Source of the DNA: a virus | DNA: 64,000 nt | Reading direction: 5' to 3' (one strand) | IMG/VR virus record: IMGVR_UViG_3300028840_003497 | Location: 1 to 64,000 of that record | In this document: positions 4,775 to 43,007 of the stretch, piece by piece | Position numbering within the stretch: the first letter of the stretch is position 1 | Layout of the letters: each line of letters starts with the position of its first letter | Position numbers and translations under genes: made by a program | The notes under the pieces: generated by a model | What the model was told of the DNA's origin: nothing | What the model saw: only the letters and a program-made list of their open reading frames with translations | The model's database searches: none

Positions 4775-4778
4775 GGTC

Positions 4779-4883: not shown

Positions 4884-4920
4884 GTTCGCCTCTCCTCGTC
4901 GGAGTGTTAATATGCGGGGA

Positions 4921-5364: not shown

Positions 5365-5368
5365 ACAA

Positions 5369-5440
5369 CGGGACCGAAGAGAATCGAACTCTCACCAGCT
5401 GGCTCGACAGGCCAGTGTCATACCATTAGACCACAATCCC
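5369..5440 (-). tRNA. tRNA-Asp(GUC)
   Basis: Acceptor GGGATTG/CGGTCCC, anticodon arm CTGGC-CTGTCGA-GCCAG, T stem GAGAG/CTCTT, discriminator G. Separated from the other tRNAs by the HNH gene. Confidence 0.9.
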
Positions 5441-5490
5441 AAACGACAACCATATTAATCACCGCATCACAGTTTGTCAACTACTTTCTG

Positions 5491-5504
5491 CGAACTCAAG
5501 TTCG
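5491..5504. repeat. Dispersed palindrome, copy 2
   Basis: CGAACTCAAGTTCG. The stop codon of the gene ending at 5496 lies inside it. Confidence 0.85.
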
Positions 5505-6464
5505 CTCGCAGATCTCCAGCAGTCGATCGGCGAGCACCACGAGGCGTGCATCCTCGGTGAATCTTTTCGATCGCGTCTTGGCCACGATCTTAAACTTCCC
5601 GGACGGGATCTTCTTGGAGGAGACATGGACGATCAGCTCATCACCGGAACCCTGGACGTCCCGCGCCAGCGGCATCAGGATCTGAGGGTCGAGCCCATAC
5701 CCAGGAAGTGGCACCGGAGCAAGCGCCACATCCCTCGGACTGAAAACCTTGGACACGATCACCCATGCGGAGTCCCCGGCGCGTCCACCGATGCCAGATC
5801 TGAATGCCTTCGCCAGCTCGTAGTCGCTGGTCCACGAACTGTACTTCCGCACATCAAGGGCACCCCCCCGGATCAAGTCCCGAGCCTGGTCCCCGTGTAT
5901 TCCGCGATAGAGCTTGATGCGCGTCCCGTATTTTTTCTTGACCGCCTGCTGGACCTTCTCAGAGAACGACTCCCAGTCCCTGTGCTTCGAGGCATTGATC
6001 CCGCTGCTGGATCCCTTCCAGTTTTTCACCTGAAAATCGAGCAGCTTGTGAAACTGCTGAGAGGACCTGGACGAGATGTCGTCGGCTGCATCCCGAACGT
6101 CTCCGCCCCAGTCGAGACCGAATATCGGGTGGTCGAACACAGCGAGGTGCTTCTTCGCTACTGCGTCCACCTTGGTCGTGGCGACCCCGACGGTCCCGGG
6201 AGACCCAGCATGCGTCCCTGTTCCAACTCCGGTCTGGTTCACAGCGTTCTCCATCGCCAACTCGAACTCAGCCTCGACCGACGATCGACTCTTGCCCCTC
6301 ACGATGATGTCGAGACTGATCCCGCTGGATACCGAGAAGTAGAGCGCGTAGTACATGGATCCCCGCTTGACCAGGAAAAACTCCTGCTTGTCGAATCCGT
6401 CGAGCCTCACGAAGCGGAGTATCTTGGGCGTCTCGGCACTCGACTTCTCGATCAGGTTTCTCAT
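5496..6464 (-). CDS. ADP-ribosyltransferase-like protein with leader
   Basis: 322 residues. Starts MRNLIEKSSAE, the leader shared by this cassette; the ATG at 6464 overlaps the upstream stop (TGATG). The C-terminal half shows the layout of ADP-ribosyltransferases: Arg187 in KLYRGIHG, the Ser-x-Ser-type segment YSSWTSDYELAKAF (208-221), and a candidate catalytic Glu276 in GSGDELIVH. The first Glu of the ExE motif is missing. T4 Alt, an injected head protein, has the same activity and modifies host RNA polymerase; a similar injected role is inferred. Residues 80-100 are a Gly/Thr/Val-rich linker. The fold assignment rests on motifs only. Confidence 0.6.
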   Translation of the reverse strand: MRNLIEKSSAETPKILRFVRLDGFDKQEFFLVKRGSMYYALYFSVSSGISLDIIVRGKSRSSVEAEFELAMENAVNQTGVGTGTHAGSPGTVGVATTKVDAVAKKHLAVFDHPIFGLDWGGDVRDAADDISSRSSQQFHKLLDFQVKNWKGSSSGINASKHRDWESFSEKVQQAVKKKYGTRIKLYRGIHGDQARDLIRGGALDVRKYSSWTSDYELAKAFRSGIGGRAGDSAWVIVSKVFSPRDVALAPVPLPGYGLDPQILMPLARDVQGSGDELIVHVSSKKIPSGKFKIVAKTRSKRFTEDARLVVLADRLLEICERT

Positions 6465-6781
6465 CACCAGCACTCACAGTTGGTCGCGGTGCAGTCACAA
6501 GCCGACGTGGTCGATGTGTACTGGATATTCGAATAGCATCCGCAGGTTCGCGAGATACATCCGCAGGTCCTCGCAGTTGTCGTCTGCTGTATAATCTGTG
6601 GTGGTTTCGGGGGCTCGATCGGAAGTGGTTTTTTCGCACCATAGGGTCGATCACGAGAGATAACTTTCGTCCTGACTTTTTGATTCGTCCGTTTTTTTAA
6701 CGTGTTCGACTTCTTAAGCGGAGACTGATCCAGGGACTGCACATTACGGAGATCATCCAGGACTTTGTAACGAGGACGCAA
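6464..6781 (-). CDS. Basic protein with Cys-rich tail
   Basis: 105 residues from a TTG at 6781 behind AAGGG. The N-terminal two thirds are Lys/Arg/Pro-rich (KKSNTLKKRTNQKVRTK; KPLPIEPPKPPQII). The last 35 residues contain eight cysteines in short CxC repeats (TCGCISRTCGC, ACDC, CEC), which could bind metal or form disulfides. Stop overlaps the ADP-ribosyltransferase start (TGATG), so they are co-translated. No family recognised. Confidence 0.6.
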   Translation of the reverse strand: MRPRYKVLDDLRNVQSLDQSPLKKSNTLKKRTNQKVRTKVISRDRPYGAKKPLPIEPPKPPQIIQQTTTARTCGCISRTCGCYSNIQYTSTTSACDCTATNCECW

Positions 6782-6791
6782 TCTTTTACCC

Positions 6792-7055
6792 TTAAGGCAG
6801 GACGTAGATGGTCTTGAATCCCCACTTCTTGGCGTGGGTCTTCGCTTTCTTTACAGCCTCTTTCCACGTGCCGGAAAAATTCACCATCTGATCCACAGGA
6901 GGATCCTTTTGGTCCATACCAAAAAACCAACCAGACGGATCCTTTGTCGGATTCCATTTGCCATGGGATCTCTCCCACTCTTTTGTGTTTACCTTCACAG
7001 CCTCATCCAGCTGCTCGCGCCCTCGCTCCTTCATTCTCTCAACCAAATTCCTCAT
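6792..7055 (-). CDS. Leader protein with WFFG-YVLP domain
   Basis: 87 residues, ATG at 7055 behind GAGGAG. The leader MRNLVERMKERGREQLDEA is followed by a compact domain (GWFFGMDQKDPP ... NFSGTWKEAVKKAKTHAKK ... TIYVLP). The same pattern ends the protein at 35298-36380, so this is a shared domain of two strands, a helix and a strand. Function unknown. Like its neighbours it is probably a virion-associated internal protein. Confidence 0.7.
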   Translation of the reverse strand: MRNLVERMKERGREQLDEAVKVNTKEWERSHGKWNPTKDPSGWFFGMDQKDPPVDQMVNFSGTWKEAVKKAKTHAKKWGFKTIYVLP

Positions 7056-7104
7056 CACTTATACTCCTCGTATTGACCAACACATTATTTGATCGTCCCA
7101 TCCT

Positions 7105-7218
7105 TCATTGATAAATGGTAGACTGAGAGACACAACAAGATGCAGCTATTTCCTCCTGAGACCAGCCAGAATCATACTTAGACTGGAGCCAATCCTTGTC
7201 GTGATAAAGCCTGCCCAT
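7105..7218 (-). CDS. Short helix-turn-helix peptide, possible remnant
   Basis: 37 residues. The sequence KYDSGWSQEEIAASCCVSQSTIYQ fits a helix-turn-helix of the homeodomain-like type found at the front of phage HNH endonucleases; it stops at the end of the recognition helix. The ribosome site is weak. It may be what is left of a lost homing endonuclease. It fills the otherwise empty 7056-7238 gap. Confidence 0.45.
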   Translation of the reverse strand: MGRLYHDKDWLQSKYDSGWSQEEIAASCCVSQSTIYQ

Positions 7219-7238
7219 AACTACCCGATTCCGCCTCC

Positions 7239-7916
7239 TCAGACCGTTGCAATAGCCTTCTTAGTATCTCTTTTTGCCTGACCAGGAAGGGATCCGGCGA
7301 GGGATGCGTCATGCTGCGCCAGTGTCATCACCAGGGCATTCTTGACCGCGTTCGCCAGGTCGTCCTCAATGAACGCCCTCTTGGCGACGTACTTCTCGGA
7401 ACCCTTCATCAATTTCTGAAACTGCGGAGCCTGGACCATCGCCTTCACCATGCGGTTAATCAGGGATTCTCCAATCGCCTCGGCCAACGCCTCCATGTCT
7501 ACAGCCTCGTCCGCCGGACCTGCTGCACCACCACTCTTAAGGCTCTTGAGAACAGCTGTCAACATCTGCTTGGCGGAGATGAGCGACGCGTGGTCGACAG
7601 TACCACCCTGGCCAATGATGAACGCAGTGATAATCGGCGTAATGAAAGAATAAAGAACCCCTTCGCTCCAATTGTTGGGATCGAGGCCGAGCTTCATCAA
7701 CTCCTTGTTCCACTTCGCCTCGTTCGTCACCATCTTGGCAGCCTTTAAAATCTTATTTATTCCTACTGCCTTCGCCCCCTCCTCGATATCCTCGGGCTCC
7801 GGATTGGATTCCTCCGCCTTCTTGGATTCTTCAAGTTGAGCCTTCTCATCCACGCTCAAACAATCCTCTTTTACGAACGCTTCGATCCCTTCTATTAGCC
7901 CCTTAAAATTTCTCAT
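7239..7916 (-). CDS. Leader protein of unknown function
   Basis: 225 residues, ATG at 7916 behind AAAGGTGAG. The start MRNFKGLIEGIEAFVKEDCL is a variant of the cassette leader. A Glu-rich stretch (ESKKAEESNPEPEDIEEGAK) follows, then long helices, with a Gly-Gly-Ala-Ala linker (KSGGAAGPADEAVDMEALAE). A moderately hydrophobic part (VLYSFITPIITAFIIG, about residues 95-110) could be a membrane-associated helix. No catalytic motif is visible. Confidence 0.7.
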   Translation of the reverse strand: MRNFKGLIEGIEAFVKEDCLSVDEKAQLEESKKAEESNPEPEDIEEGAKAVGINKILKAAKMVTNEAKWNKELMKLGLDPNNWSEGVLYSFITPIITAFIIGQGGTVDHASLISAKQMLTAVLKSLKSGGAAGPADEAVDMEALAEAIGESLINRMVKAMVQAPQFQKLMKGSEKYVAKRAFIEDDLANAVKNALVMTLAQHDASLAGSLPGQAKRDTKKAIATV

Positions 7917-7935
7917 AACACTCACCTTTCGTCGC

Positions 7936-8718
7936 TCAGCTTAGTCGTTCAATACTCTTGATTGGGACCTTGCCCTGACCCACAATCTGATAATCTCGCA
8001 CGCGCCCAGCCTTGAGCGTCTGAACGAGGTACTTACTATCTACCACAATCTTCCAGAGATCGCGACCTTCTGTGCTGCCTAAATCACTGCCGAACCCCTG
8101 TGCCCGATCTGCATTGTTCGTCACGAAAATACCAGACGGAACATTTTTTGTTCCATCGTAAATACCACGATCCTTCTTTGGCCTCGCCGTGAACACCTTC
8201 GTCGGCTTCCCAGACTTGTTCGCGCTCCCCGGGTTCCTGATCTCGTTCACCAGCTTGAAGTAGGCGATCTCCAGTTCTTCATCGTGGAAAAAATCTGCGT
8301 CTCCAGCTTCCAGCACGTCATCGACCTCGCGTGGGCCGAAGTAGCTAAACCCAGGAGCACCGCGCCCAGGCTTGCTGCCCTTGAACAGCTTCACATATGC
8401 ATGCTTCACAGGCTCGAACATGTTGTCTTTGCTGTAGTCCGGATAGATCTGAATCCCAACGTCGAGATCTAGCTTGGAGAGGATGCGCCCGAGACCACTC
8501 CCGAGCTTGTGCATGTTCTTCATAGATTTCGGAAACAGCGTCCTGGCCTCCTTGTCAGGATCGAAATCGGCCTTCCCGTTCCGACGCACCGCCCAGTCGT
8601 ATAAATCCTGCATCTCGTCCTTCAGTGCTTCCTCGTACTTGTCCATATCGATGATGACACGACCAGAAGATTCCAACAGAACGAACCCAAGTTCGTCAGT
8701 GAGCCTACGTAATATCAT
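7936..8718 (-). CDS. Second ADP-ribosyltransferase-like protein with leader
   Basis: 260 residues. Start overlaps the upstream stop (ATGA at 8718-8715). Begins MILRRLTDELGFVLLESSG, a leader variant ending in L-L-E. Near the C-terminus it has an Arg in VFTARPKKDRG (Arg179), GIFVTNNADRAQGFGSD (Thr200; compare the strand-x-T-N/T-x-x-x-A-x-x-F of ADP-ribosyltransferases), then LWKIVVD and DYQIVGQGKVPIKSI, which resembles the usual C-terminal strand before a proline turn. The catalytic Glu is not obvious, so activity is uncertain. A palindrome copy lies in its first codons. Confidence 0.5.
   Translation of the reverse strand: MILRRLTDELGFVLLESSGRVIIDMDKYEEALKDEMQDLYDWAVRRNGKADFDPDKEARTLFPKSMKNMHKLGSGLGRILSKLDLDVGIQIYPDYSKDNMFEPVKHAYVKLFKGSKPGRGAPGFSYFGPREVDDVLEAGDADFFHDEELEIAYFKLVNEIRNPGSANKSGKPTKVFTARPKKDRGIYDGTKNVPSGIFVTNNADRAQGFGSDLGSTEGRDLWKIVVDSKYLVQTLKAGRVRDYQIVGQGKVPIKSIERLS
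8682..8695. repeat. Dispersed palindrome, copy 3 (variant)
   Basis: CGAACCCAAGTTCG, in the first codons of the gene at 7936-8718. Confidence 0.6.
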
Positions 8719-8870
8719 TTCACCCTATATCCAGCCTTCTTCAGTGTGTGAATTGCTTTGAAAATATCCTCATCAGACTTCATCTGGCCTCTTTTGAGAA
8801 TAACCATGTCATATGAAGAAAATGGAGATTCTGAGACAAAACCACCCAATCTTTCCATCAACTCTCGCAT
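8715..8870 (-). CDS. Small leader protein
   Basis: 51 residues, ATG at 8870, stop overlapping the next start (ATGA). MRELMERLGGFVSE is one of the clearest leaders and ends in F-V-S-E. The remainder (SSYDMVILKRGQ then DEDIFKAIHTLKKAGYRVK) would be a strand, a helix and a strand, similar in layout to the small domains of other cassette members. Function unknown. Confidence 0.65.
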   Translation of the reverse strand: MRELMERLGGFVSESPFSSYDMVILKRGQMKSDEDIFKAIHTLKKAGYRVK

Positions 8871-8872
8871 GA

Positions 8873-9637
8873 TCATCCACCCCTCTTCTTTGCCAACTTG
8901 GCCGTGGCCATCGCCAGAGACTGCTCGGCGGCCTTGAACGCCTTCGGGTCGTCGTCCTTGAGCGCCTTCTGCATCTTCTTCAGCGCGCCACCCAGCTTCC
9001 GACCACCTTTGTTCCGGCTGGCCTTCAGCATCATTGCCTCGACACTGTCCAGTGTTTTTTTGTTATCCGGGATCTTGGTCTTGCCAGTCTTCTTGTTTTT
9101 TTTTGTGCCCCCAGAACCACCAGACGCCCTTCCAGTGCCTTTTTTGGCTTTCTTGGGCTTGACATCCCTGGCCGACGCCTTAGCGCCACCACCGCCTCCT
9201 AGTGCCCCGGAAATCTTGCTCATGATCGCGCCAAGGATGCCCTTCTTCTTTTTCTTGGGAGTTGCCGATCCACCACTTTTATTGGTTGACTTCGACTCTT
9301 TCTTCTTGCCACCGGGAATCTTGGGAGTCGAGCCCGAACCGTCGCTCGGGAAGAAATACCGCTTCCCGCGAATAGTCCTCCACACGCCGATCTTACCAGT
9401 GGAATTAATCTTCCAGAAACCATCACCAACTGCGGTTGTGTAAGCCTCACCAAGCTGCCCTACGTAGAGCATTCCGACCTGACCGTAGTTGTCGTTATCA
9501 ACCTTTTTCTTCTTGCGGGGCCTGATCTCGTCGACCTTGTACATTCGCGCCTTGCCGTATGGCCACGGACGAGTTCCACCTCCAGTCACCGCAAACGGCT
9601 GAGGAGTTCCAGCAATATTGCCAGACGTAGTCGTCAT
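8873..9637 (-). CDS. Lys/Gly-rich basic virion protein candidate
   Basis: 254 residues, good ribosome site GGGAGG. Residues 30-95 contain a compact part with VWRTIRGKRYFFPSDG, a pattern seen in several phage head-associated proteins. The rest is very basic and low in complexity (KKKKK, GGGGG, TKKNKKTGKTK), ending with two predicted helices. Such basic proteins bind DNA inside heads, which would fit the internal-protein cassette. It lacks the leader, so its sorting would differ. Function inferred only from composition. Confidence 0.6.
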   Translation of the reverse strand: MTTTSGNIAGTPQPFAVTGGGTRPWPYGKARMYKVDEIRPRKKKKVDNDNYGQVGMLYVGQLGEAYTTAVGDGFWKINSTGKIGVWRTIRGKRYFFPSDGSGSTPKIPGGKKKESKSTNKSGGSATPKKKKKGILGAIMSKISGALGGGGGAKASARDVKPKKAKKGTGRASGGSGGTKKNKKTGKTKIPDNKKTLDSVEAMMLKASRNKGGRKLGGALKKMQKALKDDDPKAFKAAEQSLAMATAKLAKKRGG

Positions 9638-9638
9638 G

Positions 9639-9911
9639 TTACCTCCCAGCTCTCACGCCCATCCCGACTGCAAGATTTGTGGCGTCCCGCTTGATCTGAT
9701 TGAGCTTAACCATGAGATCATCGATCTCACTAGCTTCACCTTTGTTGGCCTTGCCCCACTTCGAAGTCGGAATCGCCTTGAGTGCCTTAACTGCCGATCC
9801 AGTGCCCGAAATAACTGTCTTCAACGCACTGTAGACTTTCTTGTCGTCGAAACTGGCCTCTTCCAAATTATCACCTTTTACGTACTTCATCTTTTCGAGC
9901 AAATCACGCAT
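9639..9911 (-). CDS. Small leader protein
   Basis: 90 residues behind AGGAGATGAT. The leader MRDLLEKMKYVKGDNLEE ends in L-E-E, matching the T4 protease rule of cutting after Leu/Ile-x-Glu. The rest is helical with a Ser-Lys-Trp-Gly-Lys turn in the middle. No known domain. Confidence 0.65.
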   Translation of the reverse strand: MRDLLEKMKYVKGDNLEEASFDDKKVYSALKTVISGTGSAVKALKAIPTSKWGKANKGEASEIDDLMVKLNQIKRDATNLAVGMGVRAGR

Positions 9912-9922
9912 ATCATCTCCTG

Positions 9923-10201
9923 CTATGGTTTCGTCGGGGCAGGGCCAATGCCCCGCTTGATTTCCCTGAATCCGTTTTCATTATTGTCACAAAAATAATC
10001 GATCAGAGACTTTGAACCATGAATTCTCATCACAGCCCACCCCTTCTGCCAGTGTTTACCTGCGTCCGATTTCTTTACATTCCTAACGTGCAGACCAGCA
10101 CCCTGGGCAAAACGCTGGGTGTTCACGTAATTAGCCGTCTTACCAAATGCCCAAGCGAGACCAGCATATTCTTCCTCTATGCGCTCGATAATCCTACGCA
10201 T
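9923..10201 (-). CDS. Small leader protein
   Basis: 92 residues from the ATG at 10201 behind GGAGG; overlaps the upstream stop by 8 bases. Leader MRRIIERIEEEYAG. The remainder has aromatic and His residues (KHWQKGWAVMRIHGSKSLIDYF) that suggest a small alpha/beta domain. No catalytic motif recognised. Confidence 0.65.
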   Translation of the reverse strand: MRRIIERIEEEYAGLAWAFGKTANYVNTQRFAQGAGLHVRNVKKSDAGKHWQKGWAVMRIHGSKSLIDYFCDNNENGFREIKRGIGPAPTKP

Positions 10202-10535
10202 CCGCAACTACCTCCGGACGCAAAACAACACAGGCTCCATTTCTCGTCTTCACCGTCTCGACAGACTCTACACCTCTGGCACCATCAAATCGACGCGCAA
10301 CTTGACCTCCGACCGACATGGCATGGCGTCCCTCCATGATCATCAACAAGGAAACACCAGACTTTGTCTTGGCCTCAAACACGGTCTTGGAAACTTCACG
10401 ACCTTTGATCGCCCGCTCCCCAGCCGTTTTCATCGACCGGAACAGGCGCTCTTCGGCAACAGTCAAGTCGTTCTGACGATGCTTTTGTGGTACGCCAGAA
10501 ATGAAATCGTGGAGTTTGGTCGTAAGTTTTTCCAT
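10194..10535 (-). CDS. Small leader protein
   Basis: 113 residues. The ATG at 10535 overlaps the upstream stop (TGATG), and AAGGAAGG lies just before it. MEKLTTKLHDFISGV resembles the leader. A charged helix (NDLTVAEERLFRSMKTAGER) is followed by strands (GVSLLMIMEGRHAMSVGGQ; NGACVVLRPEV). Function unknown. Confidence 0.65.
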   Translation of the reverse strand: MEKLTTKLHDFISGVPQKHRQNDLTVAEERLFRSMKTAGERAIKGREVSKTVFEAKTKSGVSLLMIMEGRHAMSVGGQVARRFDGARGVESVETVKTRNGACVVLRPEVVADA

Positions 10536-11227
10536 CAACCTTCCTTCCATTTCCAATACGCTGATTCGCTTCCAAAGAAACGCTCTGTGTCGCTACCGCC
10601 AAATTCGGGATCAAATTCCTCATAATCCGGCATCTGTTTCTTTAACTCCTTCATCACTGTCTTGATAAGGGGCCACAAGTTCTTGCTCGGATCAAACGGC
10701 TTCTTTTTACGCTCCCATTGAGCCTCGATGTTGATTCCATCCTTTGGAGGCTCCGGAGACATCATCACACCGTCATCCCTGGCCTCTGGATCGAAACGGT
10801 CAACCATCACACTGCAAACCACACCCTCACCATCCCCATATGGGTAGCACGAGATAGCGAAGTCCGCGCTGGCAAGATCGACCGTCGTGTTCATCGGCTT
10901 GCCTCGTTGACCAGCCTCGTAGTCAGGCTCGATCATGCCGTCCCCGATGCCAATCGGATACCCATACTTGGCCTCCAACTGACTCTCCATTATCGCCTCG
11001 CCAAACTTGTCAAGAACCTGCTTGTCTAACGCCAGTGCTTCTGTGATATCCCACGGCCTCGGAAGCATGCGAGGAATCTCAGAAACTCTCGCCCTCATGG
11101 CAGCGCCGATCTGCTTGGCCAACATTTTGTCAGCATCGCTCGCGCGCTTGCGAGTACGACGTTTCCGAACCTTCTTCGCCCTGCCCTCCGAGATAAATCG
11201 GCCCAAATTATCAATAAGATGTTTCAT
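10535..11227 (-). CDS. Leader protein of unknown function
   Basis: 230 residues from the ATG at 11227, chosen because MKHLIDNLGRFISEG matches the shared leader; upstream in-frame starts would extend it with unrelated residues. F-I-S-E could be the cut site. A basic stretch (KKVRKRRTRKRASD) follows, then a domain with strands (DFAISCYPYGDGEGVVCSVM) and an acidic end. The basic patch right after the leader suggests contact with DNA. Confidence 0.65.
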   Translation of the reverse strand: MKHLIDNLGRFISEGRAKKVRKRRTRKRASDADKMLAKQIGAAMRARVSEIPRMLPRPWDITEALALDKQVLDKFGEAIMESQLEAKYGYPIGIGDGMIEPDYEAGQRGKPMNTTVDLASADFAISCYPYGDGEGVVCSVMVDRFDPEARDDGVMMSPEPPKDGINIEAQWERKKKPFDPSKNLWPLIKTVMKELKKQMPDYEEFDPEFGGSDTERFFGSESAYWKWKEG

Positions 11228-11278
11228 TGTTTCACGCCAACTTCCATGGGTTTTGTCCGCACACATAAAATGCTCATC

Positions 11279-11785
11279 TTATTTTTCCAAATGACGAGCG
11301 TCTTCGTTTTTCTCGACCAGACCACCGTAGAGCGCATTGATGCCCATTGCAATGTGTTCCGGATGGATATCGAACACTTTAGACTTGTCCTCGATCTCCA
11401 CCGGTTTGCTAATACCCACCGACATCGATCCGCGCTTCCAGAACTCCCACTTGTCACCCTTGCGAGAAACAACAATATCAATCTGCCAATTATCCCCGGC
11501 CAGCCGAACTCCACCGATCGACCCTCCACCACCCATTGGCGGCATATGGGTGATCTCCACCTTGAGACCCTTCTGATTCTGTCGCAGGTACTTTTTAGTC
11601 ACCACAGCTACGTTGCCCAGAAAGGCCTTCTCCGCAGCCTTGATCTTGTCGTTAATAGAGACGGTAGCTTCGGCAAGCGCCTGAGCCTCCTCGTCCAACT
11701 GCTGATCGTCCTGAGAGTACGACTCCACCAAAGGTGTCATCCCGGCTAGATAGCGCATCTCACTCATGAATTTATCTTTTGACAT
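11279..11785 (-). CDS. Leader-type protein of unknown function
   Basis: 168 residues, ATG at 11785. The start MSKDKFMSEMRYLAGMTPLV contains EMRYLAGM, close to the YMKRLAGL at the C-terminus of the protease-scaffold protein, so this region may be a different kind of prohead-targeting peptide. The middle part holds a Gly-rich loop (PPMGGGGSIGGVRL) between strands (DIVVSRKGDKWEFWKRG). Sits upstream of the other leader genes in the same operon. Confidence 0.6.
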   Translation of the reverse strand: MSKDKFMSEMRYLAGMTPLVESYSQDDQQLDEEAQALAEATVSINDKIKAAEKAFLGNVAVVTKKYLRQNQKGLKVEITHMPPMGGGGSIGGVRLAGDNWQIDIVVSRKGDKWEFWKRGSMSVGISKPVEIEDKSKVFDIHPEHIAMGINALYGGLVEKNEDARHLEK

Positions 11786-11812
11786 CACACACTCTCCCAG
11801 GGCATACCCTTG

Positions 11813-12328
11813 CTATACTGTCGGGATCATCTCTCCGAATAGGTAGACGTTTGCCAGCGAACCAGCGGTTCCTGTCGTGTCAGCTTTTGTCACTTTGACG
11901 AAAACTTCAGCATTGCCACCCATCGCCGCCTTCTTGACCGCGCTCAGATCGACAACCAACTTGTCGTTCAAGGTCGTCACCGCGATGACAGTCGCCGCCA
12001 GGATCTCGGTTCCGCCAGTGGTAATCCCGATAGTGATCTCGCCGTCGCCAGCCAATGTTCCGCCAACGCCAGTGCAGTGAACAACAGCTGTAACTGGGAC
12101 AAACTGCTTCGTCGCCACACCACCGATTTCCTTCGACTGCTCGTCGTTCAGCGTCACGATGTCTAAGTCCTCGACCAACACGCGAACTTTCTCGCCGCCG
12201 TTATCCAACACGTCGGCAAGGGAGTCTCCCTCGGAAACGGTGTCGTTCGGGATCTGTGATGCGAAAGGGATCGCCCCTTTGCTACGAATGTCATTTCCGG
12301 ACGGTGCATTTGTTCTGTTTCTGGACAT
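11813..12328 (-). CDS. Virion structural protein candidate, beta-rich
   Basis: 171 residues, strong ribosome site AAAGGAGG. Mostly short strands with Val/Thr (VTAVVHCTGVGGTLAGDGEI, LAATVIAVTTLNDKLVVDLS), ending in VYLFGEMIPTV. This looks like the beta-sandwich type used for capsid decoration or tail surface proteins, but no family is recognised. Lies directly downstream of the endolysin gene. Confidence 0.55.
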   Translation of the reverse strand: MSRNRTNAPSGNDIRSKGAIPFASQIPNDTVSEGDSLADVLDNGGEKVRVLVEDLDIVTLNDEQSKEIGGVATKQFVPVTAVVHCTGVGGTLAGDGEITIGITTGGTEILAATVIAVTTLNDKLVVDLSAVKKAAMGGNAEVFVKVTKADTTGTAGSLANVYLFGEMIPTV

Positions 12329-12348
12329 CTTTTCCTCCTTTGCGGGTA

Positions 12349-13308
12349 TTATACCCGATTTATAAAATCATTTAAAACATATCGCCCGTCACTGTGAGAG
12401 GCGAAGTCTCGATGCGCCACAATGCCCGGCCCAGGACGGCCTTTAGGTTTCATTGTGAGACCCTCGATCTGTCTCTTCTTCTTGTTCAAACCCTTAGTCG
12501 GAAACCGGAACGGAATACCAGTGAGTTTGCATATCCATGGCACCAGCAACCGAATCGCTGCCATCTGACGATCAGTAGGCAACACGTACCTGCGATCCTT
12601 CTTGTCCGGACACCACGTCCACCAGAGCGCTTTAATAAACTTCGACCAGATAGACTCGTCACGCACATACTTAGGAGCATATGGATTCACAATCTCCACA
12701 CCGATACTCGTGTCGTTAATCTGGTTGGCATGAACCATCCGATCCAAAACCAAATCTCCGTGGCAACTCAAGTGGCCATCAGGATCCAGGATCAACTGAA
12801 CTCCGTAGCCCTTCTTGAGCAGCGTACGTTTACACCCCTTGGCCGTATTCCCGCACGTCTCGTGCAAAACAAAGTGGATCAAATCCGCAGATCTCTGCCG
12901 ATGCTTAAAATGTGGCTCGCCATCATCCTCATAATTGGAAGCTGTCAACCCAGCATCAATAAACCCTTTTGGAAGCGTAACCCGCTCTCCATTCACAATA
13001 ATAGCATTCGAATACCCATGCTCGTTTGGCTTTCCATACGGAGGTGGATCTAAATCTGGACTCGGCTTTTTCGGTGTCTCCACCGATGTATCATCCTCGC
13101 TCTTTTTAATTGCCTTCAGCGTCACAGGCCCGAGCTTTCCGTCCACCTCAAGATTCTTCGACATTTGAAAACAAGCCGTCGCCCAGATAAATGTTTTAGA
13201 ATCAGAGAGACACCACGGCCACGGGAGATCCTTTAGTTCGTAGAGGCTTCCTAATTTTCCTGCATTGTGATGTATCGCAGATGTGACCTGTTTCTTCGTA
13301 AGCATCAT
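12349..13308 (-). CDS. Endolysin: peptidoglycan-binding domain plus N-acetylmuramoyl-L-alanine amidase
   Basis: 319 residues. Residues 47-67 (FQMSKNLEVDGKLGPVTLKA) match the PG_binding_1 repeat. Residues 143-301 form an Amidase_2 domain with candidate zinc ligands His149 (LIHFVLHETCG) and His299 with Asp301 (IVAHRDF); the central part has GYGVQLILDPDGHLSCHGD and SIGVEIVNPY as in T7-lysozyme-like amidases. It would cut the amide between muramic acid and the stem peptide at lysis. No signal peptide is seen, so it needs a holin. Its start overlaps the stop of the next gene upstream (ATGA). Confidence 0.92.
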   Translation of the reverse strand: MMLTKKQVTSAIHHNAGKLGSLYELKDLPWPWCLSDSKTFIWATACFQMSKNLEVDGKLGPVTLKAIKKSEDDTSVETPKKPSPDLDPPPYGKPNEHGYSNAIIVNGERVTLPKGFIDAGLTASNYEDDGEPHFKHRQRSADLIHFVLHETCGNTAKGCKRTLLKKGYGVQLILDPDGHLSCHGDLVLDRMVHANQINDTSIGVEIVNPYAPKYVRDESIWSKFIKALWWTWCPDKKDRRYVLPTDRQMAAIRLLVPWICKLTGIPFRFPTKGLNKKKRQIEGLTMKPKGRPGPGIVAHRDFASHSDGRYVLNDFINRV

Positions 13309-13802
13309 CCCACCATCAATCCGGCACGAGACGCACGATCTCGCACACGGCTCTTTTTGATTTTCTTAAACATCCTGTTCATCGATTTCACTTTGCTCGT
13401 GCCATCAGCCGTCCATCCAATCGGGTCAAGCGCCGTCCTGAGCCTGTTTACATTCGCATGCTCTGGATCGTCCACGGCACCTCGAAGGGTTACCTCCTGT
13501 CGGTACCAGAACCCGAATGAATGCCGAGTCCACTCGATCGTGAATTTGATATTCTCTCCGTTTGCCGGAACCGTTACATAGACCCGAATAAGACCCACAT
13601 TACGCCTCCTGCGACTCAGCAAATCACCCACCAACATCATCGTGTACTCAGACTGCCCACGAGGACGTGGAGATACCAGCTCCCTCTTGATCCGCCCCAT
13701 TCTCAGGAGTAGATCGCGCACCATGTCCAACCCCGCCTCGGCGGCTTGCGCCTGGGGTGACTCGGCTGCCGTCTCCGGCTTATTAGGAACTGCACCTGTC
13801 AT
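13305..13802 (-). CDS. Protein of unknown function in the lysis group
   Basis: 165 residues. An Ala/Gln/Glu-rich start is followed by a helical basic segment (RDLLLRMGRIKRELVSPRPR), strands (GLIRVYVTVPANGENIKF) and a basic C-terminal helix (MNRMFKKIKKSRVRDRASR). The stop overlaps the endolysin start. No domain recognised; could be a structural protein. Confidence 0.6.
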   Translation of the reverse strand: MTGAVPNKPETAAESPQAQAAEAGLDMVRDLLLRMGRIKRELVSPRPRGQSEYTMMLVGDLLSRRRRNVGLIRVYVTVPANGENIKFTIEWTRHSFGFWYRQEVTLRGAVDDPEHANVNRLRTALDPIGWTADGTSKVKSMNRMFKKIKKSRVRDRASRAGLMVG

Positions 13803-13820
13803 CTTTAGCCTTCAAATTTT

Positions 13821-14480
13821 TCATTTCTTACCTCCAAGAAGTTCTCCTAGATCTGGCAACCTATCCCTCACAGGGACCTCTTGCTGCTGCTGAATCAGGT
13901 CATCCAGTGATTTCTTCTTGCCCTCACGCGGGAGCGCGTGCGCCACAGGTGGTTTCGTAGCGACCGATCCTTCGCCGTCAGACGCACCCACAGGCTCCAT
14001 AGCGCCCTCTCCGTCCGTGTCGGCGTCTCCGTCGGCAGCTGCAGGAAACAGCTCCTCCGGGGGCAACAGGCCCGCGCTGGAGCCATCCACTCCAACACCA
14101 GAGCTTCCACCACCGCCAAACCCCCGCATGGCCTCCATCACGTCCAGGGCTTCGTCCTCGATAGAACCATCCAAGGCGTAGGCTGTGCTTCCGCCGCCAA
14201 TCATATCCAGCTTCGTCTGGAGCCGGGTCAGCTCGATCAACATCTTCTGATTGATCTCAGCCTGTCGCTTCCGAGCCTCGGTGTTGTCCTCCGCATCCTT
14301 CGCAAGAAGGGGATACGCACTCTCGATCGCCGTCAGGGCCTTCTCGTCAGTATCGTCGATAAATCGCTCCCACAGACCAGGCGTACTGGCGAGGGTGATC
14401 AGCAAGATCATAACCGGGTGAAACCCAGCCTTCTTCATAGCAGTCACCTTGTCCATAACGCTTGTCCTGTCGTCGCCCAT
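13821..14480 (-). CDS. Single hydrophobic segment plus coiled coil; possible lysis protein
   Basis: 219 residues. One hydrophobic stretch near residues 20-36 (FHPVMILLITLASTPG) is followed by a helical region (TEARKRQAEINQKMLIELTR) likely to form a coiled coil, then Gly- and acidic-rich disorder and a last helix. A membrane-anchored N-terminus with a coiled coil fits an inner-membrane spanin, and its place near the endolysin supports a lysis role. The hydrophobic segment is short and contains charged neighbours, so this remains tentative. Confidence 0.5.
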   Translation of the reverse strand: MGDDRTSVMDKVTAMKKAGFHPVMILLITLASTPGLWERFIDDTDEKALTAIESAYPLLAKDAEDNTEARKRQAEINQKMLIELTRLQTKLDMIGGGSTAYALDGSIEDEALDVMEAMRGFGGGGSSGVGVDGSSAGLLPPEELFPAAADGDADTDGEGAMEPVGASDGEGSVATKPPVAHALPREGKKKSLDDLIQQQQEVPVRDRLPDLGELLGGKK

Positions 14481-14489
14481 CGATTCCTC

Positions 14490-14774
14490 CTACGGCATAT
14501 GAATCGTCCAGACCTTGCCGCTGGACTCATGGCCCACATTTGCTTCCGGATACTTCTTCTGAACCTCGTCCGCGAATCGATCGAACAGCTTCAAGCCGTC
14601 CATCTCTGCATCCACGTCGGTGTGAATCGTGATGGACTTGCCCTTCTTCACGACCTTGCCGAACTGATCCCTGCCGATAATCTTGCTGAGCACCCTGGTC
14701 AACCAGCTTATCTTGACACCACCACCGAGGACCCCATCGGCAATCTTGATCTTCTTCTCTATCAACTGTCTCAT
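14490..14774 (-). CDS. Small leader protein
   Basis: 94 residues, GAGG before the ATG. Leader MRQLIEKKIKIADG, then KISWLTRVLSKIIG and a C-terminal domain of strands and a helix (SITIHTDVDAEMDG; LFDRFADEVQKKYP; GKVWTIHMP). The strand-helix-strand ending resembles other cassette members. Confidence 0.65.
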   Translation of the reverse strand: MRQLIEKKIKIADGVLGGGVKISWLTRVLSKIIGRDQFGKVVKKGKSITIHTDVDAEMDGLKLFDRFADEVQKKYPEANVGHESSGKVWTIHMP

Positions 14775-14807
14775 TCGTTTAACTCCTCGTGCCTCACCAG
14801 TCGTTCA

Positions 14808-15119
14808 CTATACTTCTGTGGCCTGTTTTCGCGCCCAATTCCTGTCAGAAGAAAACTCCTTAACTACTGGTTTGATTTTCTTGTAAATGTCTTTGCCTGC
14901 CATGTCAGAAAGCCAGTTAGACACACCTATGATGCTACCACTGACCGTCTGTTTTCCCGGACTGCCATTTTCAAATTCTACCTCGACATCAACAACCACG
15001 TAGGTGTTGCGGCTCTTCTCCAGTTTTCTAATCTGGTTTCTAAGACCCTTATCGAAGTCTTTTGCCGAAAACACCTCAGCCAGACATCTTGATTTTAAAC
15101 GCTCTATTAAAAGTCTCAT
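14808..15119 (-). CDS. Small leader protein
   Basis: 103 residues. The ATG at 15119 overlaps the holin-like gene's stop (ATGA), and GGAG lies 8 bases upstream. Leader MRLLIERLKSRCLAEV. The rest has strands (TYVVVDVEVEFENG) and a basic C-terminal helix. Unknown function. Confidence 0.65.
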   Translation of the reverse strand: MRLLIERLKSRCLAEVFSAKDFDKGLRNQIRKLEKSRNTYVVVDVEVEFENGSPGKQTVSGSIIGVSNWLSDMAGKDIYKKIKPVVKEFSSDRNWARKQATEV

Positions 15120-15481
15120 CCGTTTAGCTCCTTTGGCTTGTCATCGTCATCCATCTCAGACGTGTCATCCCAGTCAGGACCATCGTCATCGTCGTCGTCA
15201 TGCACATGAGACTGCCCGTTGCCGTTTCTAGCCCCAAGAGCGCCACTCACAGCCGCTGCAACGTCCGCGCCCCTACCCACAGCCCTCTCGGCTGCCTTAG
15301 CGGCACCCTGAGCCCCGTGATCACTGATGCCTTGACCAAGAATATACGTCGCCAGAATACCAAGCGCAGAGTACATAGCCTGATCACTCACAATCTTACC
15401 CAGCACATCGTTTACGATCATTCCAATCGCAGCCAATACACCCACTATCAATTTCTTCGATTTCAGACTATTAAAATCCAT
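15116..15481 (-). CDS. Holin-like membrane protein
   Basis: 121 residues. Two hydrophobic helices: LIVGVLAAIGMIVNDVLG (about 12-29) and MYSALGILATYILGQGI (about 37-53). An Ala-rich amphipathic part and a very acidic tail (HDDDDDDGPDWDD) follow. Small phage proteins with this two-helix pattern, including N-D near the end of helix 1 and YI-x-G-Q-G in helix 2, are commonly holins. It lies about 1.8 kb from the endolysin. The acidic tail would be cytoplasmic. Role inferred. Confidence 0.6.
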   Translation of the reverse strand: MDFNSLKSKKLIVGVLAAIGMIVNDVLGKIVSDQAMYSALGILATYILGQGISDHGAQGAAKAAERAVGRGADVAAAVSGALGARNGNGQSHVHDDDDDDGPDWDDTSEMDDDDKPKELNG

Positions 15482-15490
15482 GTCAATCTC

Positions 15491-15811
15491 CTACTTTTTA
15501 AAGTGTTTTATAATCCTCGACGCCGCACTCTTTGCACTCAAGCCAGTAGAGTATCGAGGAGCACCTTTACCAGCCAAAGAAACCACCCACCCATCATCGT
15601 CTATCCCGACCCTGATCACGGGCTTGTCTCTCCATCCCTCATACGTCAACATCCAGGCTGGATCATCCTGGCCAGGTCGATCTATCCGCTTGAATACAAT
15701 CTCGTAATCAGGGAGTTTATTGTCAACCATACTCTTGATTGTATTAATTTCACGGACATGTTTGGGCACATCCACCAGGCGACGCATCTTTTGTTCAATT
15801 AGTTTCCTCAT
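15491..15811 (-). CDS. Small leader protein
   Basis: 106 residues behind AAGGAG. Leader MRKLIEQKMRRLVDV. The C-terminal domain has strands (DKPVIRVGIDDDGWVVSLA) followed by a helix (AKSAASRIIKHFKK), the same strand-helix layout as the two genes further upstream. Unknown function. Confidence 0.65.
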   Translation of the reverse strand: MRKLIEQKMRRLVDVPKHVREINTIKSMVDNKLPDYEIVFKRIDRPGQDDPAWMLTYEGWRDKPVIRVGIDDDGWVVSLAGKGAPRYSTGLSAKSAASRIIKHFKK

Positions 15812-15836
15812 AACACAACTCCTTCTCCAGCACTCA

Positions 15837-16253
15837 TCACGACACCACAGCCCACTGAAGCCCGCGCTGCTTCGCTATTCGTTCTGCCGATTCAATCGCA
15901 TCTTCCTTGTCATCAAAAGACGCCAACTTTTCCCAGTTTCCACTTGCGAGAGGACCAATAATGACATCCCAAACCCCATCGATCAACTCGACTTCAATAC
16001 GCTGCACTATCGCAGCATCGCTCAAAACAGCTCGCAATTTTCGAATTGCTGAACTCTCAATATTTTTGATAATTGCTTCGGATCGCCGGAGAAGCTTCGG
16101 ATCTGCCGTTTTTTTAAACCTCTCGATGTTGCCAACAAGCGTATCAAGAGAATCTTTGATGTCACGAATCTCGTTCCTCACTTGCCTCAGAATCGAATTT
16201 CCAAGCCCTGTCTTTTCCAACTTGCGTTTCTTTGATTCTATGATATCACGCAC
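15837..16253 (-). CDS. Leader protein, paralogue of 16806-17441 in its middle part
   Basis: 138 residues from a GTG at 16253 behind GGAGG (7 bases). The longer in-frame start at 16313 would run across the palindrome and lacks a ribosome site. Leader MRDIIESKKRKLEK. The block IRDIKDSLDTLVGNIERF ... SAIRKLRAVLSD aligns with the 16806-17441 protein. A C-terminal strand-helix-strand domain ends in QWAVVS. Function unknown. Confidence 0.65.
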   Translation of the reverse strand: MRDIIESKKRKLEKTGLGNSILRQVRNEIRDIKDSLDTLVGNIERFKKTADPKLLRRSEAIIKNIESSAIRKLRAVLSDAAIVQRIEVELIDGVWDVIIGPLASGNWEKLASFDDKEDAIESAERIAKQRGLQWAVVS

Positions 16254-16267
16254 AATAAATCCTCCCG

Positions 16268-16281
16268 CGAACTTGAGTTCG
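16268..16281. repeat. Dispersed palindrome, copy 4
   Basis: CGAACTTGAGTTCG, in the 29-base gap between two cassette genes; adds CGC/GCG flanks. Confidence 0.85.
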
Positions 16282-16282
16282 C

Positions 16283-16804
16283 TCAGTCGTAAACACCAAG
16301 ACGATCTCCCCATGAAGGAGTCCCTCTGAACAATATCTCATTCGCTACATCCTGTGGGGAATCGCTGAATATCTTCATTCCGCTTAGACCACTCGGAGCC
16401 TTGACAGCTCCTGACTTCTTGTCGTCTCCACGATTAGCCTTCACCGTCAGCGACGGGCTGAGTTTATGTTCCATATTGATATAGATAGCAAATTCACCAC
16501 CCGCGTACGGGAGCGATGTGTCACCCTCGAACTTGACCCACAGTGATGCTCCTTGAACCTTCGCGCCGTACGTGGAGTACCCGCGCTCAGTGAGATGCTC
16601 GACCAGGATGAACCCGACCATCTGCAGAAATTCAGAAACGACCCCCTGCCATCCCTGTTGAAACTTTGCGCGCCTGTTGGTCGAGAAATCCGATCCCTCA
16701 TCAATATTTTTCCTAAAGGCATCCTCACCCAGCACCTTCTCCGGCCTCACACCAGCGTACTCCAAGACCTCCGTCAGAATTTGATTCTTGCTCTTTATCC
16801 GCAT
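16283..16804 (-). CDS. Cassette protein of unknown function
   Basis: 173 residues behind AGGAG. Begins MRIKSKNQILTEVLEYAGV and continues RPEKVLGEDAF, which aligns with QLLSEMIGNAGIDPKKVLGE in the neighbour at 16806-17441. The later domain has strands (GEFAIYINMEHKLSPSLTV) and an insert rich in Lys/Gly. The front part is a second type of leader used by two adjacent genes. Confidence 0.65.
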   Translation of the reverse strand: MRIKSKNQILTEVLEYAGVRPEKVLGEDAFRKNIDEGSDFSTNRRAKFQQGWQGVVSEFLQMVGFILVEHLTERGYSTYGAKVQGASLWVKFEGDTSLPYAGGEFAIYINMEHKLSPSLTVKANRGDDKKSGAVKAPSGLSGMKIFSDSPQDVANEILFRGTPSWGDRLGVYD

Positions 16805-16805
16805 A

Positions 16806-17441
16806 TCAAACTCCTTTCTTGACGTCCTGCTCGTACCCCTTCACCAGCGAGCGCATTCCACCCTCGCCATACTCTCCGTCAACCAGAAACTGCATCTTCT
16901 CCTGGAAGTGCGGAATGTCGCCCATAAAATCTACCGGCGGGATCTTTGCAAGCTCCTTGAGTGCCGAATCAATAAAATCTACGGCCTTCTTGAACGCAAC
17001 AGCGCGCTTCTTTAAGTTCGCCTTGGTCTTCGGAGCTAGTTCCTTCCTAGTCCGAGGATACTTGTAAGCAGCAGCCTCTTCAATATCACTCTTCTCTCCG
17101 AGCGATTCACCCTTGTGTGCGCTACGCACCCGCAAAGAAAGCCCCCCTTTGTAATCGTCGAGCATGCCACGCAACTTGCGAAAACCTGCTTTCTCAATTG
17201 AGTCAAGCGCCATGCCAGCTCTAGTAATCGTCGTCTTGTCAATCTTGGAATCGAGTTTCTTAACATATCCGACGAACATATCGAGAAAAGACTTGATATC
17301 CTTTACCTCATCCTTGGCAGCCATGTACACACCACGAGGCTCCCCCTCGGCAATATCATCCTCTCCGAGCACCTTCTTTGGATCGATTCCCGCGTTCCCA
17401 ATCATCTCGGACAGTAATTGTTTTTTCGTTTTCGTGATCAT
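16806..17441 (-). CDS. Cassette protein, mosaic of its two neighbours
   Basis: 211 residues from the ATG at 17441 (GGGAGTAGGATC before it). The N-terminus (KKQLLSEMIGNAGIDPKKVLGE) matches the gene at 16283-16804, and the next block (VKDIKSFLDMFVGYVKK ... GFRKLRGMLDD) matches the gene at 15837-16253. A Lys-rich helical domain completes it. This mosaic points to recombination or duplication within the cassette. Function unknown. Confidence 0.7.
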   Translation of the reverse strand: MITKTKKQLLSEMIGNAGIDPKKVLGEDDIAEGEPRGVYMAAKDEVKDIKSFLDMFVGYVKKLDSKIDKTTITRAGMALDSIEKAGFRKLRGMLDDYKGGLSLRVRSAHKGESLGEKSDIEEAAAYKYPRTRKELAPKTKANLKKRAVAFKKAVDFIDSALKELAKIPPVDFMGDIPHFQEKMQFLVDGEYGEGGMRSLVKGYEQDVKKGV

Positions 17442-17445
17442 GATC

Positions 17446-17988
17446 CTACTCCCAACCGTAGTCGTCTTTGCAGACCTTGAATGCCTTCTCAAACGCCTTC
17501 TTAGCGGTTGGCCCAGAACCGTGCGCGACAACCCTGTTGGCATGTTTGTCAGAGCTTTCTCTGACGCCGAACTCGTATTTCTCCGGCTGTCCGTATCCGC
17601 CCATGTGGAAGATACGAATCTCCCCCTGGCTCTTGCGTTTCTCTTCGTCTAGACCATCCGCGTCCTCATCCTCGTCCTCTCCAAGCACACTCTTGGCCGC
17701 CGTGGTCAAAGCATCAGACACCGCCGACAGATACTTCTTAGCCGTGTCGTCGTCCTTCGCGGCGACGGCAAGACCCTTAAGAAGCTGGACCATCTTGAAC
17801 TGCGCGTCGGCGTCTTTGTAGTCCGTGTCACGCAGGGCCTTGATGATACCCTCCGTCTTGTTTTCCTCGTCGAGCAACTGACAAAGCATCTCCAAGGATG
17901 CCGCCGCATCTGTCACAACAGCCTCAGACTCGTCCAGATGTTTACCATCGATAATATTACCCAGATCTTCGATTATTTTCTTTTTCAT
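17446..17988 (-). CDS. Leader protein with acidic middle
   Basis: 180 residues behind TAGGAG. Leader MKKKIIEDLGNIIDG. A helical domain (residues 25-105) is followed by SVLGEDEDEDADGLDEEKR and a C-terminal domain with strands and a helix (TAKKAFEKAFKVCKDD). First gene of the cassette downstream of the tail tube, 9 bases after it. Confidence 0.65.
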   Translation of the reverse strand: MKKKIIEDLGNIIDGKHLDESEAVVTDAAASLEMLCQLLDEENKTEGIIKALRDTDYKDADAQFKMVQLLKGLAVAAKDDDTAKKYLSAVSDALTTAAKSVLGEDEDEDADGLDEEKRKSQGEIRIFHMGGYGQPEKYEFGVRESSDKHANRVVAHGSGPTAKKAFEKAFKVCKDDYGWE

Positions 17989-38505: not shown

Positions 38506-40131
38506 CTACAGAGTTGTGGTTACAACCGGCAGACCAGATACTGTGATCGTGCCATAGTACTCTGGACGTAGCATCCGAGTTGCATACCGAGTCCTCACGC
38601 CCTTGCGGAACGTGAAATCATTTGGATCGAGGAAGGTCGGGGTGACCTGCAGCGGCACGTAGGGTGCGTAAACGTACCCAGCGTCGATGAAGGAATTACC
38701 CTTGAGACCGACCAGGATCTGGTTGGCAGGCATGTACGGATCTTGGTAAACTGCATACTTGCGCAGCAGCGTTCCGATCCGGGCAATACCGTAGTTGGCA
38801 GTAACAGGACCGTAGCTCGCAGCCTGTACATTCTGCTCGATGCTGGCAAAGTCTCCATGCGTCGAGAGCTGATCAAGCAACCCACCAATGCCCGGGGGTA
38901 CAACAATAAAGTTGGCCGGGGCACGTCCTGATGTCCTGTGGATCTCTGCCGAGAGCGCACTGATCTGCGTGATCAACTGACGGATGCTCTCAATCTCACC
39001 CGGGATACCTGGAGCATAAGTGTACGGAATCGAATGCGCCGCCCCATTGACGAGGTCAGTAATGATCTCGCGGTCCACTTCCAGCATAACCTCATTGGAG
39101 AATGTGCTTACCAACTCAGCCTCTGCGTCCATCCCGTGCAATGCACGAAGATCATCCACAGCCTCTACTGTCCAGCGAGCCTTCAGTTTGCGACTCTCAG
39201 CCTGCACAGTGTGAAGAGCGATATCCAAGCTGATGCTGGGAATCTCCGCTCCATCGGTGTAGCCAACCAATTCCCAATTCACAAAGTACTGGAAATAGAT
39301 GACTGTGTTGTTGGTGAAGTTGGAAGCCGATCCACCGGATCCGAGAGGAGTAACCGCCCACTGACCGTTGGTCACATCAAACGTACCACAGACCTGAGTT
39401 CCCGATGGGTTCAGATCGTCGATGAGGTTACCAGCATCGTTCATCGTTGCTTCGACCTCTGTCGGAGCATTTGCATTGTCCGCATCGTTGCAGCGGAAGA
39501 ATGCCTTCACGTAGAACGTGCGCTGTCCAGCAGTTCCGTTTGCACGGATTGGCGACCAGTCGGTCACTGCACAATTGGTCGAACCCTGGTTCAGGGTCGC
39601 CGTGGCAGTTCCAGTGTCTGTACAGACAGCATCGTAGTCGTTGAACTCAGAGCTGTAGTACTTCGCAAAGTTCTGGTTAAGATTGTCCCCAGCTTCCAAC
39701 TCGCCACCATAAGCCATGTCGGTCGGGTTGTTGGCGATCGCAGCCTGTGGCAGTTTGGTGCCTTTGCGTCCGTCATACTTTTTCTCGTAGTAGAAAACGC
39801 CTCCAATGGGGGACGTCATCGGCTGAACCGATACCAGCTGGTTGGCGATCAAGTTCGGGAAAACCCGACGCAGGATCGGGAACACATATTTCGTGAACGC
39901 GCCAGCGTTTGTGCTCAGGGTGTCCTCATGGAAAGACTTGATGTGCTCCATCTCGTTTTCCAGAAGAATCGCCGTCGCTTTTTTGGTGTATCCGTTGTCG
40001 TGTTGAACCGGAATACCCTCCAGAAGATCGCCCCATTTGCCAACGCATGCGCCAGCGTAGCTGTTATCGTGGATGGTTTTCGGTCCGGCTTGCTCCAGGA
40101 TTGCCCTGGCTTCTGTGCTTTCGATGCCCAT
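38506..40131 (-). CDS. Major capsid protein, gp23-like
   Basis: 541 residues (T4 gp23: 521). Features: FPILRRVFPNLIANQLVSVQ, PMTSPIGGVFYYEKKYDG, LKARWTVEAVDDLRALHGMD, AEAELVSTFSNEVMLEVDRE and the C-terminal MLRPEYYGTITVSG, all as in T4-type major capsid proteins (HK97 fold). Residues 60-75 (MEHIKSFHEDTLSTNAG) could hold the protease cut that removes the N-terminal propeptide, near EDT. An inserted part (185-285) is Thr/Asn-rich. The gene has its own terminator, fitting high expression. Confidence 0.93.
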   Translation of the reverse strand: MGIESTEARAILEQAGPKTIHDNSYAGACVGKWGDLLEGIPVQHDNGYTKKATAILLENEMEHIKSFHEDTLSTNAGAFTKYVFPILRRVFPNLIANQLVSVQPMTSPIGGVFYYEKKYDGRKGTKLPQAAIANNPTDMAYGGELEAGDNLNQNFAKYYSSEFNDYDAVCTDTGTATATLNQGSTNCAVTDWSPIRANGTAGQRTFYVKAFFRCNDADNANAPTEVEATMNDAGNLIDDLNPSGTQVCGTFDVTNGQWAVTPLGSGGSASNFTNNTVIYFQYFVNWELVGYTDGAEIPSISLDIALHTVQAESRKLKARWTVEAVDDLRALHGMDAEAELVSTFSNEVMLEVDREIITDLVNGAAHSIPYTYAPGIPGEIESIRQLITQISALSAEIHRTSGRAPANFIVVPPGIGGLLDQLSTHGDFASIEQNVQAASYGPVTANYGIARIGTLLRKYAVYQDPYMPANQILVGLKGNSFIDAGYVYAPYVPLQVTPTFLDPNDFTFRKGVRTRYATRMLRPEYYGTITVSGLPVVTTTL

Positions 40132-41788: not shown

Positions 41789-41792
41789 TGTA

Positions 41793-41990
41793 TCATCCTT
41801 TTTTGCCAGTCTTGCTTCTCCAACGCCGGATGCGTGTTCTAGCAAGCGGGTTCCTGTCGAGCTTACGCTTGGCTTCCGGGGAGACTCGTCGATCTGTCTT
41901 TTTCCCATCACCGCGAGCAGCTTTCTTGAGCGACTCAAACCCTACCAGCTCCTTTCGCCCCGACGGAGTTCCCGTGCGACGTCGCCACAC
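41793..41990 (-). CDS. Small basic head-core protein candidate
   Basis: 65 residues, probable GTG start at 41990 with a weak site; an upstream in-frame CTG would add TSRLGEAV-type residues. Very basic (RRRTGTPSGRKE; KRKLDRNPLARTRIRRWRSK). In T4 small core proteins (gp67, gp68) lie between portal and protease genes, the place held here. No sequence match claimed. Confidence 0.5.
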   Translation of the reverse strand: MWRRRTGTPSGRKELVGFESLKKAARGDGKKTDRRVSPEAKRKLDRNPLARTRIRRWRSKTGKKG

Positions 41991-43003: not shown

Positions 43004-43007
43004 TGTT

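Follow-up and report, generated by a model that had tools for sequence, protein, structure and literature searches.

The internal proteins (IPs) of bacteriophage T4 are small and basic, and the T4 prohead protease gp21 cuts after L/I-x-E (PMC9026906). T4 internal proteins inhibit type IV restriction enzymes, and at least 10 IPs have been reported from T4 relatives (PMC12373910); the T4 facts used here were drawn from PMC9026906, PMC3012670, PMC12373910 and PMC9391042. In the T4 records, IPIII begins MKTYQEFIAE/A (here and below, a slash marks the cut or proposed cut) and loses a ten-residue leader, six residues are removed from the start of Alt (MELITE), and the core protein gp67 opens with MEGLIEA. 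Here we analyze a cassette of genes at positions 5,496 to 17,988 of a window of 64,000 nucleotides, which is one end of the virus record IMGVR_UViG_3300028840_003497 (176,267 bases, hereafter G000). Proteins with unrelated bodies in this cassette begin with a common N-terminal leader, and the features of these sequences indicate that the leaders are very probably the capsid-targeting sequences of a T4-type internal-protein system.

The cassette resembles the IPI, IPII and IPIII system (PMC9026906, PMC3012670, PMC12373910) in having a short leader at the N-terminus of small, basic and mutually unrelated proteins, an L/I-x-E site and an S77 protease. As the first-pass annotation of this DNA had claimed, the leader itself differs from that of T4 (MRxLIE here, MKTYQEFIAE in the T4 IPs), the two agreeing only in layout (basic residue 2, hydrophobic residues 4 and 8, E6), and the set is larger, with 17 canonical members compared with three IPs plus Alt in T4. 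A further difference is that the same cassette holds a second leader class. Alt, which is cut after residue 6, and gp67 have M-x-x-[LI]-x-E in common with the leader described here. Alt is an injected ADP-ribosyltransferase (ART), and the predicted fold of one window effector (7936-8718) may be ART-superfamily-like, whereas no sequence homology between Alt and the window proteins is detectable. Diverse anti-defence cargo is known in T4, and anti-defence and enzyme-like domains follow the leader here. The T4 ip genes adjoin the e lysozyme gene and a tRNA cluster; the cassette likewise lies near tRNA genes and encloses an amidase endolysin and a holin-like gene, a likeness of layout only.

Two other systems are comparable. 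The DarB signal of P1 is similar in that an N-terminal peptide suffices to load cargo into a myophage head, but the Dar proteins have no common sequence and a single cargo has been demonstrated (PMC9024508). The ejection proteins of SPN3US and phiKZ-type phages are similar in that many head proteins are processed by a prohead protease and ejected into the host; their propeptides, however, are mostly longer than 100 residues, with an A-x-E cut in SPN3US and no short common leader (PMC5694885, PMC10052503).

A common leader on unrelated proteins

All eleven N-termini quoted in the first-pass annotation are present in the minus-strand sequence where they had been placed (MRDIIESKKR begins at a GTG codon), and 10 of them match M/V-[RK]-x-h-h-[ED] exactly. 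The class I leader, M-[R/K]-x-L-I-E, starts 10 window proteins, and seven more have degenerate or second-type leaders; the earlier count of about seventeen is reached when these are included, the canonical number in the window being 10. Genome-wide there are 17 canonical leaders: besides those of the window, six make up a second cluster (150-153 kb) and one belongs to an isolated gene at 129494. The consensus is M-R-x-L-I-E-[RK]-[LMI]-x-x-[LI]-x-E.

We counted the pattern over all starts preceded by a Shine-Dalgarno-like stretch in the whole 176-kb record, and found it at 9 of the 108 starts of the window cassette, at 5 of 19 within the second cluster and at none of the 1278 others (Fisher 1e-15). 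Because the pattern was defined on the window, the window count alone is circular, and the independent checks are the second cluster together with the 129494 gene, the relatives, and an unsupervised search for over-represented N-terminal patterns. In the unsupervised search the leader is the top pattern in G000 (13 observed, 0.9 expected, log10 p -10.8); it also ranks first in G002, G006, G009 and G011, and a related pattern was found in G005. Relatives found via the capsid protein carry the leader on 16 (G002), 10 (G011), nine (G008 and G009) or seven (G005 and G006) proteins. No enrichment was found for a C-terminal copy of the tag.

The bodies behind the leader are unrelated, as originally described. 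In the 72 leader proteins compared, M1 is the sole invariant residue, E6 is almost always present, and the remainder cannot be aligned. Once doubtful starts and spurious motif matches were dropped (for example, an internal Met of an antirepressor), the set was reduced to 61 unrelated families. The bodies are small (median 126 amino acids) and basic, with a charge of +3.1 per 100 amino acids compared with -2.5 for other proteins (p 7e-9).

Candidate cut sites behind the leader

The gp21-like protease reported at 40163 matches both PF03420, the S77 family profile, and phrog_207, and co-occurs in G000 with T4-like head genes (phrog_138, Portal_T4) in the order portal - x - x - protease - capsid. 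The L/I-x-E cut sites proposed for the leader ends also find statistical support. The motif [LIMF]xE[ASG] is about 7-fold enriched directly after the leader, with 21 sites among the 854 positions of residues 7-20, compared with 21 among 6414 body positions, across the 61 curated families. When residues 7-24 were scrambled in the uncurated set, 4.8 sites were obtained compared with 22 observed, a number never reached in 5000 shuffles.

In some families the site is kept while the residues in front of it change. In the family of 10535-11227 it persists as MKHLIDNLGRFISE/G, MRDLIESLGKFIAE/S and MKRLLESLGTFLDE/A (F-I-S-E/G, F-I-A-E/S and F-L-D-E/A), and another family keeps it across relatives as NLEE/A, NLEE/A and VLDE/A. 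A further candidate cut site is the leader core, M-x-x-L-I-E; as T4 Alt loses six residues and T4 IPIII ten, the putative cut in each protein could lie at either place.

Natural gain, loss and exchange of the leader

Several protein families occur both with and without the leader, or with another N-terminus in its place, and these natural swaps suggest that the leader is a removable tag. Proteins with a KTSC domain bear the leader in five records (G000, G001, G002, G003 and G005) and have none in two (G008 and G011). In the G002 cassette, the leader fronts a Tad6-like half-domain, namely the C-terminal half (in Pfam, the type I Thoeris inhibitor family), and full-length Tad6-like proteins without a leader are encoded in G010 and in the G000 window (61330-61980, E 2e-37).

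The family of 7936-8718 has a leader variant as its N-terminus in G000, G002, G009 and G011. In the G005 member the N-terminus is replaced via fusion to a neighbouring MTTTSxNIA-type protein, and the boundary is still FVLE/S. Alignment of nine diverse members places [LIV]xE/[SAG] just before the body in seven of them. All seven site-bearing members come from phages with an S77 protease (contig L136 carries the G002 version of the family, and its protease was tested in G002), and the site is absent in both members from records (494 and 200 kb) in which neither an S77 protease nor a T4-like capsid protein was detected, a comparison of small samples in which absence from a record is not proof. 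The AlphaFold model of the 7936-8718 protein (predicted local distance difference test, pLDDT, 81.5) is confident apart from a short loop and from residues 1-18, which are predicted to be disordered; the predicted fold would thus begin right behind the cut proposed at residue 16.

Probable capsid targeting and alternative roles

The T4-type capsid-targeting role put forward in the first-pass annotation draws its support from the protein-level leader on unrelated bodies, the cut sites, the S77 protease, the basic bodies, the tag swaps and the different leader of a relative (G017), which also ends in L-x-E/A; the leader is not, however, the T4 capsid-targeting sequence. Several observations weigh against this role. 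Searches of Pfam, PHROGs and NCBIfam gave no match of the bodies to IPI, IPII, IPIII or Alt. The strict site is found at residues 7-20 in only 21 of the 61 leader families, which leaves the precise position of the cut ambiguous in many of them, and two alignments with T4 disagree on where the capsid protein itself is cut. Leaders are few in G012 and G015, none were found under this pattern in the fragments G013, G014 and G016, and G020 shows no common leader. Finally, no T4-type late promoter (TATAAATA) was found in the window, and late expression is therefore inferred from strand and neighbours only.

The leader could instead target another part of the virion (tail tube, baseplate or portal) or dock structural proteins that are never injected, which we consider unlikely. 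The second cluster is near baseplate-like structural genes, and the first lies directly after the tail sheath gene and neighbouring tail genes of the window, as such a role would have it. It does not fit with the cut-site enrichment and the co-occurrence with a head protease, with bodies that are basic and turn over rapidly, or with the anti-defence and enzyme-like domains that follow the leader. Somewhat less likely still is that the leader is no packaging tag and guides early proteins of the cytoplasm, once made, to the membrane or RNA polymerase of the host. Amphipathic N-terminal helices are able to bind membranes and a few leader genes stand alone (129494, KTSC), but leader genes are found within late structural regions on the same strand, and the enrichment of protease sites would be left unexplained. 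That the similar N-termini are a by-product of a DNA-level translation-start or regulatory element, or of a recombination seam, is hardly credible: the genes are tightly packed and accessory genes turn over among relatives, but synonymous codons vary at each leader position (CGT/AGG/AGA/CGA; CTA/TTA/TTG/CTG), indicating that the peptide and not the DNA is conserved, the hydrophobic moment of the leader is 0.52 compared with 0.36 in scrambled leaders, and the leader persists in relatives of different DNA.

If the leaders are capsid-targeting sequences, the amphipathic N-terminal leader would dock each cargo on the prohead core late in infection, and the S77 prohead protease would cut after the Glu of L/I-x-E; this Glu would be residue 6, matching T4 Alt, or lie among residues 10-20, matching T4 IPIII. 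The basic body freed by cleavage would remain with the packaged DNA and be injected at infection, and cargo such as anti-defence proteins and enzymes would then act on the host. Such a system would function like T4 capsid targeting and would be new in its larger cargo set, its clade-specific leaders and its second leader class.

Other leaders

The class II leader, K-x-x-L-L-x-E-M-L-x-N-A-G-V-D-P-x-K-I-L-G-E/D, also ends in L-x-E. It is found in 16283-16804 and 16806-17441 and in genes of G002, G009 and G010, where it fronts five unrelated body types, and by analogy its role may be of the same kind as that of class I. A protease-bearing T4-like relative, G017 (L149-L158), has a leader of its own, M-[G/S]-h-[S/A]-x-Q-L-Q-E/A, on 12 proteins that are unrelated to one another (log10 p -17; examples at 71350, 99485, 127490, 150058 and 153224). 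From clade to clade the leader sequence varies, and the L-x-E/A ending stays.

A broader generalization, which we give an even chance of being correct, is that T4-like phages of uncultured hosts use clade-specific, rapidly replaced packaging codes, sometimes two per phage, under a single L/I-x-E protease rule, with repertoires of 10-20 or more effectors that can be read from sequence. If so, the T4 packaging peptide would be replaceable in evolution and the protease rule fixed. Injected proteins are hard to recognize because they have no common homology; by way of the leader and cut site, the entire first wave of proteins injected by uncultured phages could be catalogued from sequence, with new anti-defence proteins and host-modifying enzymes among them, and the leaders would provide new cargo tags for phage-based protein delivery.

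Two further N-terminal elements were observed. The product of 8873-9637 has an MTTTSGNIAG-type N-terminus that is common to homologues in G002, G009 and G012 and is fused to another effector in G005; this is possibly a further targeting module. An [M/L]-x-x-L-[A/S]-G-[V/I/L/M] element recurs near N-termini (11279-11785, and 117046 of G001) and at the protease C-terminus.

Possible cargo functions

Most bodies are orphans in Pfam, PHROGs and NCBIfam, and three cassette proteins are without any match in INPHARED. For the 7936-8718 body, the best PDB matches in Foldseek are KptA/Tpt1 proteins of the ART superfamily (probability 0.87-0.99, E 0.009-0.03, TM-score about 0.2), which is suggestive only of an ART-superfamily-like predicted fold. 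We also considered 5496-6464 as an ADP-ribosyltransferase and rejected it: the motif was seen by eye only, and Pfam, PHROG, INPHARED, a PDB sequence search and the Alt profile were all blank (the Alt profile was also negative for four other window proteins). Its single-sequence structure model is useless (pLDDT 36).

Genome setting

No DNA match was found in INPHARED, and the closest INPHARED capsid proteins have about 31% identity or less to that of G000, which places the virus in an uncultured T4-like clade. The INPHARED record with the nearest capsid protein, LR756511, shows no leader cluster in the 100 kb that were read, and a search for the host via the capsid protein gave no match in GTDB genomes. 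The minus strand carries most window genes, and the features of the cassette and of the head gene region are listed in Table 1.

Table 1. Leader proteins, enclosed non-members and head genes of the window (lengths in amino acids, aa; a slash marks the proposed cut)
Coordinates	Strand	Feature	N-terminus	Remarks
5496..6464	minus	class I leader protein, 322 aa	MRNLIEKSSAE	
6792..7055	minus	class I leader protein, 87 aa	MRNLVERMKERGREQLDE/A	
7239..7916	minus	degenerate leader protein, 225 aa	MRNFKGLIEGIEAFVKE	
7936..8718	minus	degenerate leader protein, 260 aa	MILRRLTDELGFVLLE/S	effector family
8715..8870	minus	class I leader protein, 51 aa	MRELMERLGGFVSE/S	
9639..9911	minus	class I leader protein, 90 aa	MRDLLEKMKYVKGDNLEE/A	relatives retain cut site
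9923..10201	minus	class I leader protein, 92 aa	MRRIIERIEEE	
10194..10550	minus	weak candidate leader protein, about 118 aa	MEGRLMEKLTTKLHDFISG	uncertain start
10535..11227	minus	class I leader protein, 230 aa	MKHLIDNLGRFISE/G	KFIAE/S and TFLDE/A in relatives
11279..11785	minus	leader variant, 168 aa	MSKDKFMSEMRYLAGMTPLVE/S	
12349..13308	minus	amidase endolysin		non-member inside cassette
14490..14774	minus	class I leader protein, 94 aa	MRQLIEKKIK	
14808..15119	minus	class I leader protein, 103 aa	MRLLIERLKSRCLAE/V	
15116..15481	minus	small hydrophobic holin-like gene		non-member inside cassette; inference from sequence
15491..15811	minus	class I leader protein, 106 aa	MRKLIEQKMR	
15837..16253	minus	class I leader protein, 138 aa	MRDIIESKKR	GTG start
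16283..16804	minus	class II leader protein, 173 aa	KNQILTEVLEYAGVRPEKVLGE/D	
16806..17441	minus	class II leader protein, 211 aa	MITKTKKQLLSEMIGNAGIDPKKVLGE/D	
17446..17988	minus	degenerate class I leader protein, 180 aa	MKKKIIEDLGNIIDGKHLDE/S	relatives MRKLIEKLGNAIEG, MKKFVEELGDVIKGKVLSE
8873-9637, 11813-12328, 13305-13802, 13821-14480		further non-members in cassette interval		
38506..40131	minus	gp23-like major capsid protein		phrog_138, 8e-68
40163..41938	minus	prohead protease, gp21-like S77, long charged C-terminal extension		PF03420 2.3e-15, phrog_207 2.5e-40
42011..43871	minus	two genes positioned like T4 core genes 67 and 68, portal-protease interval		position only
43878..47747	minus	T4-type portal protein with intein(s)		Portal_T4

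The protease has 591 amino acids, and there is no separate scaffold gene ahead of the capsid gene; the charged C-terminal extension of the protease is possibly a fused scaffold. Its likely start, MPNLLIESS, resembles MNEPQLLIET of T4 gp21. Directly adjoining the cassette are 16 tRNA genes (3255-5441). Intein or homing-endonuclease domains split three genes in the interval 43878-55006: the portal gene, the gene at 47751-51041, which by its position would encode the large terminase, and an SNF2-type helicase gene (52091-55006).

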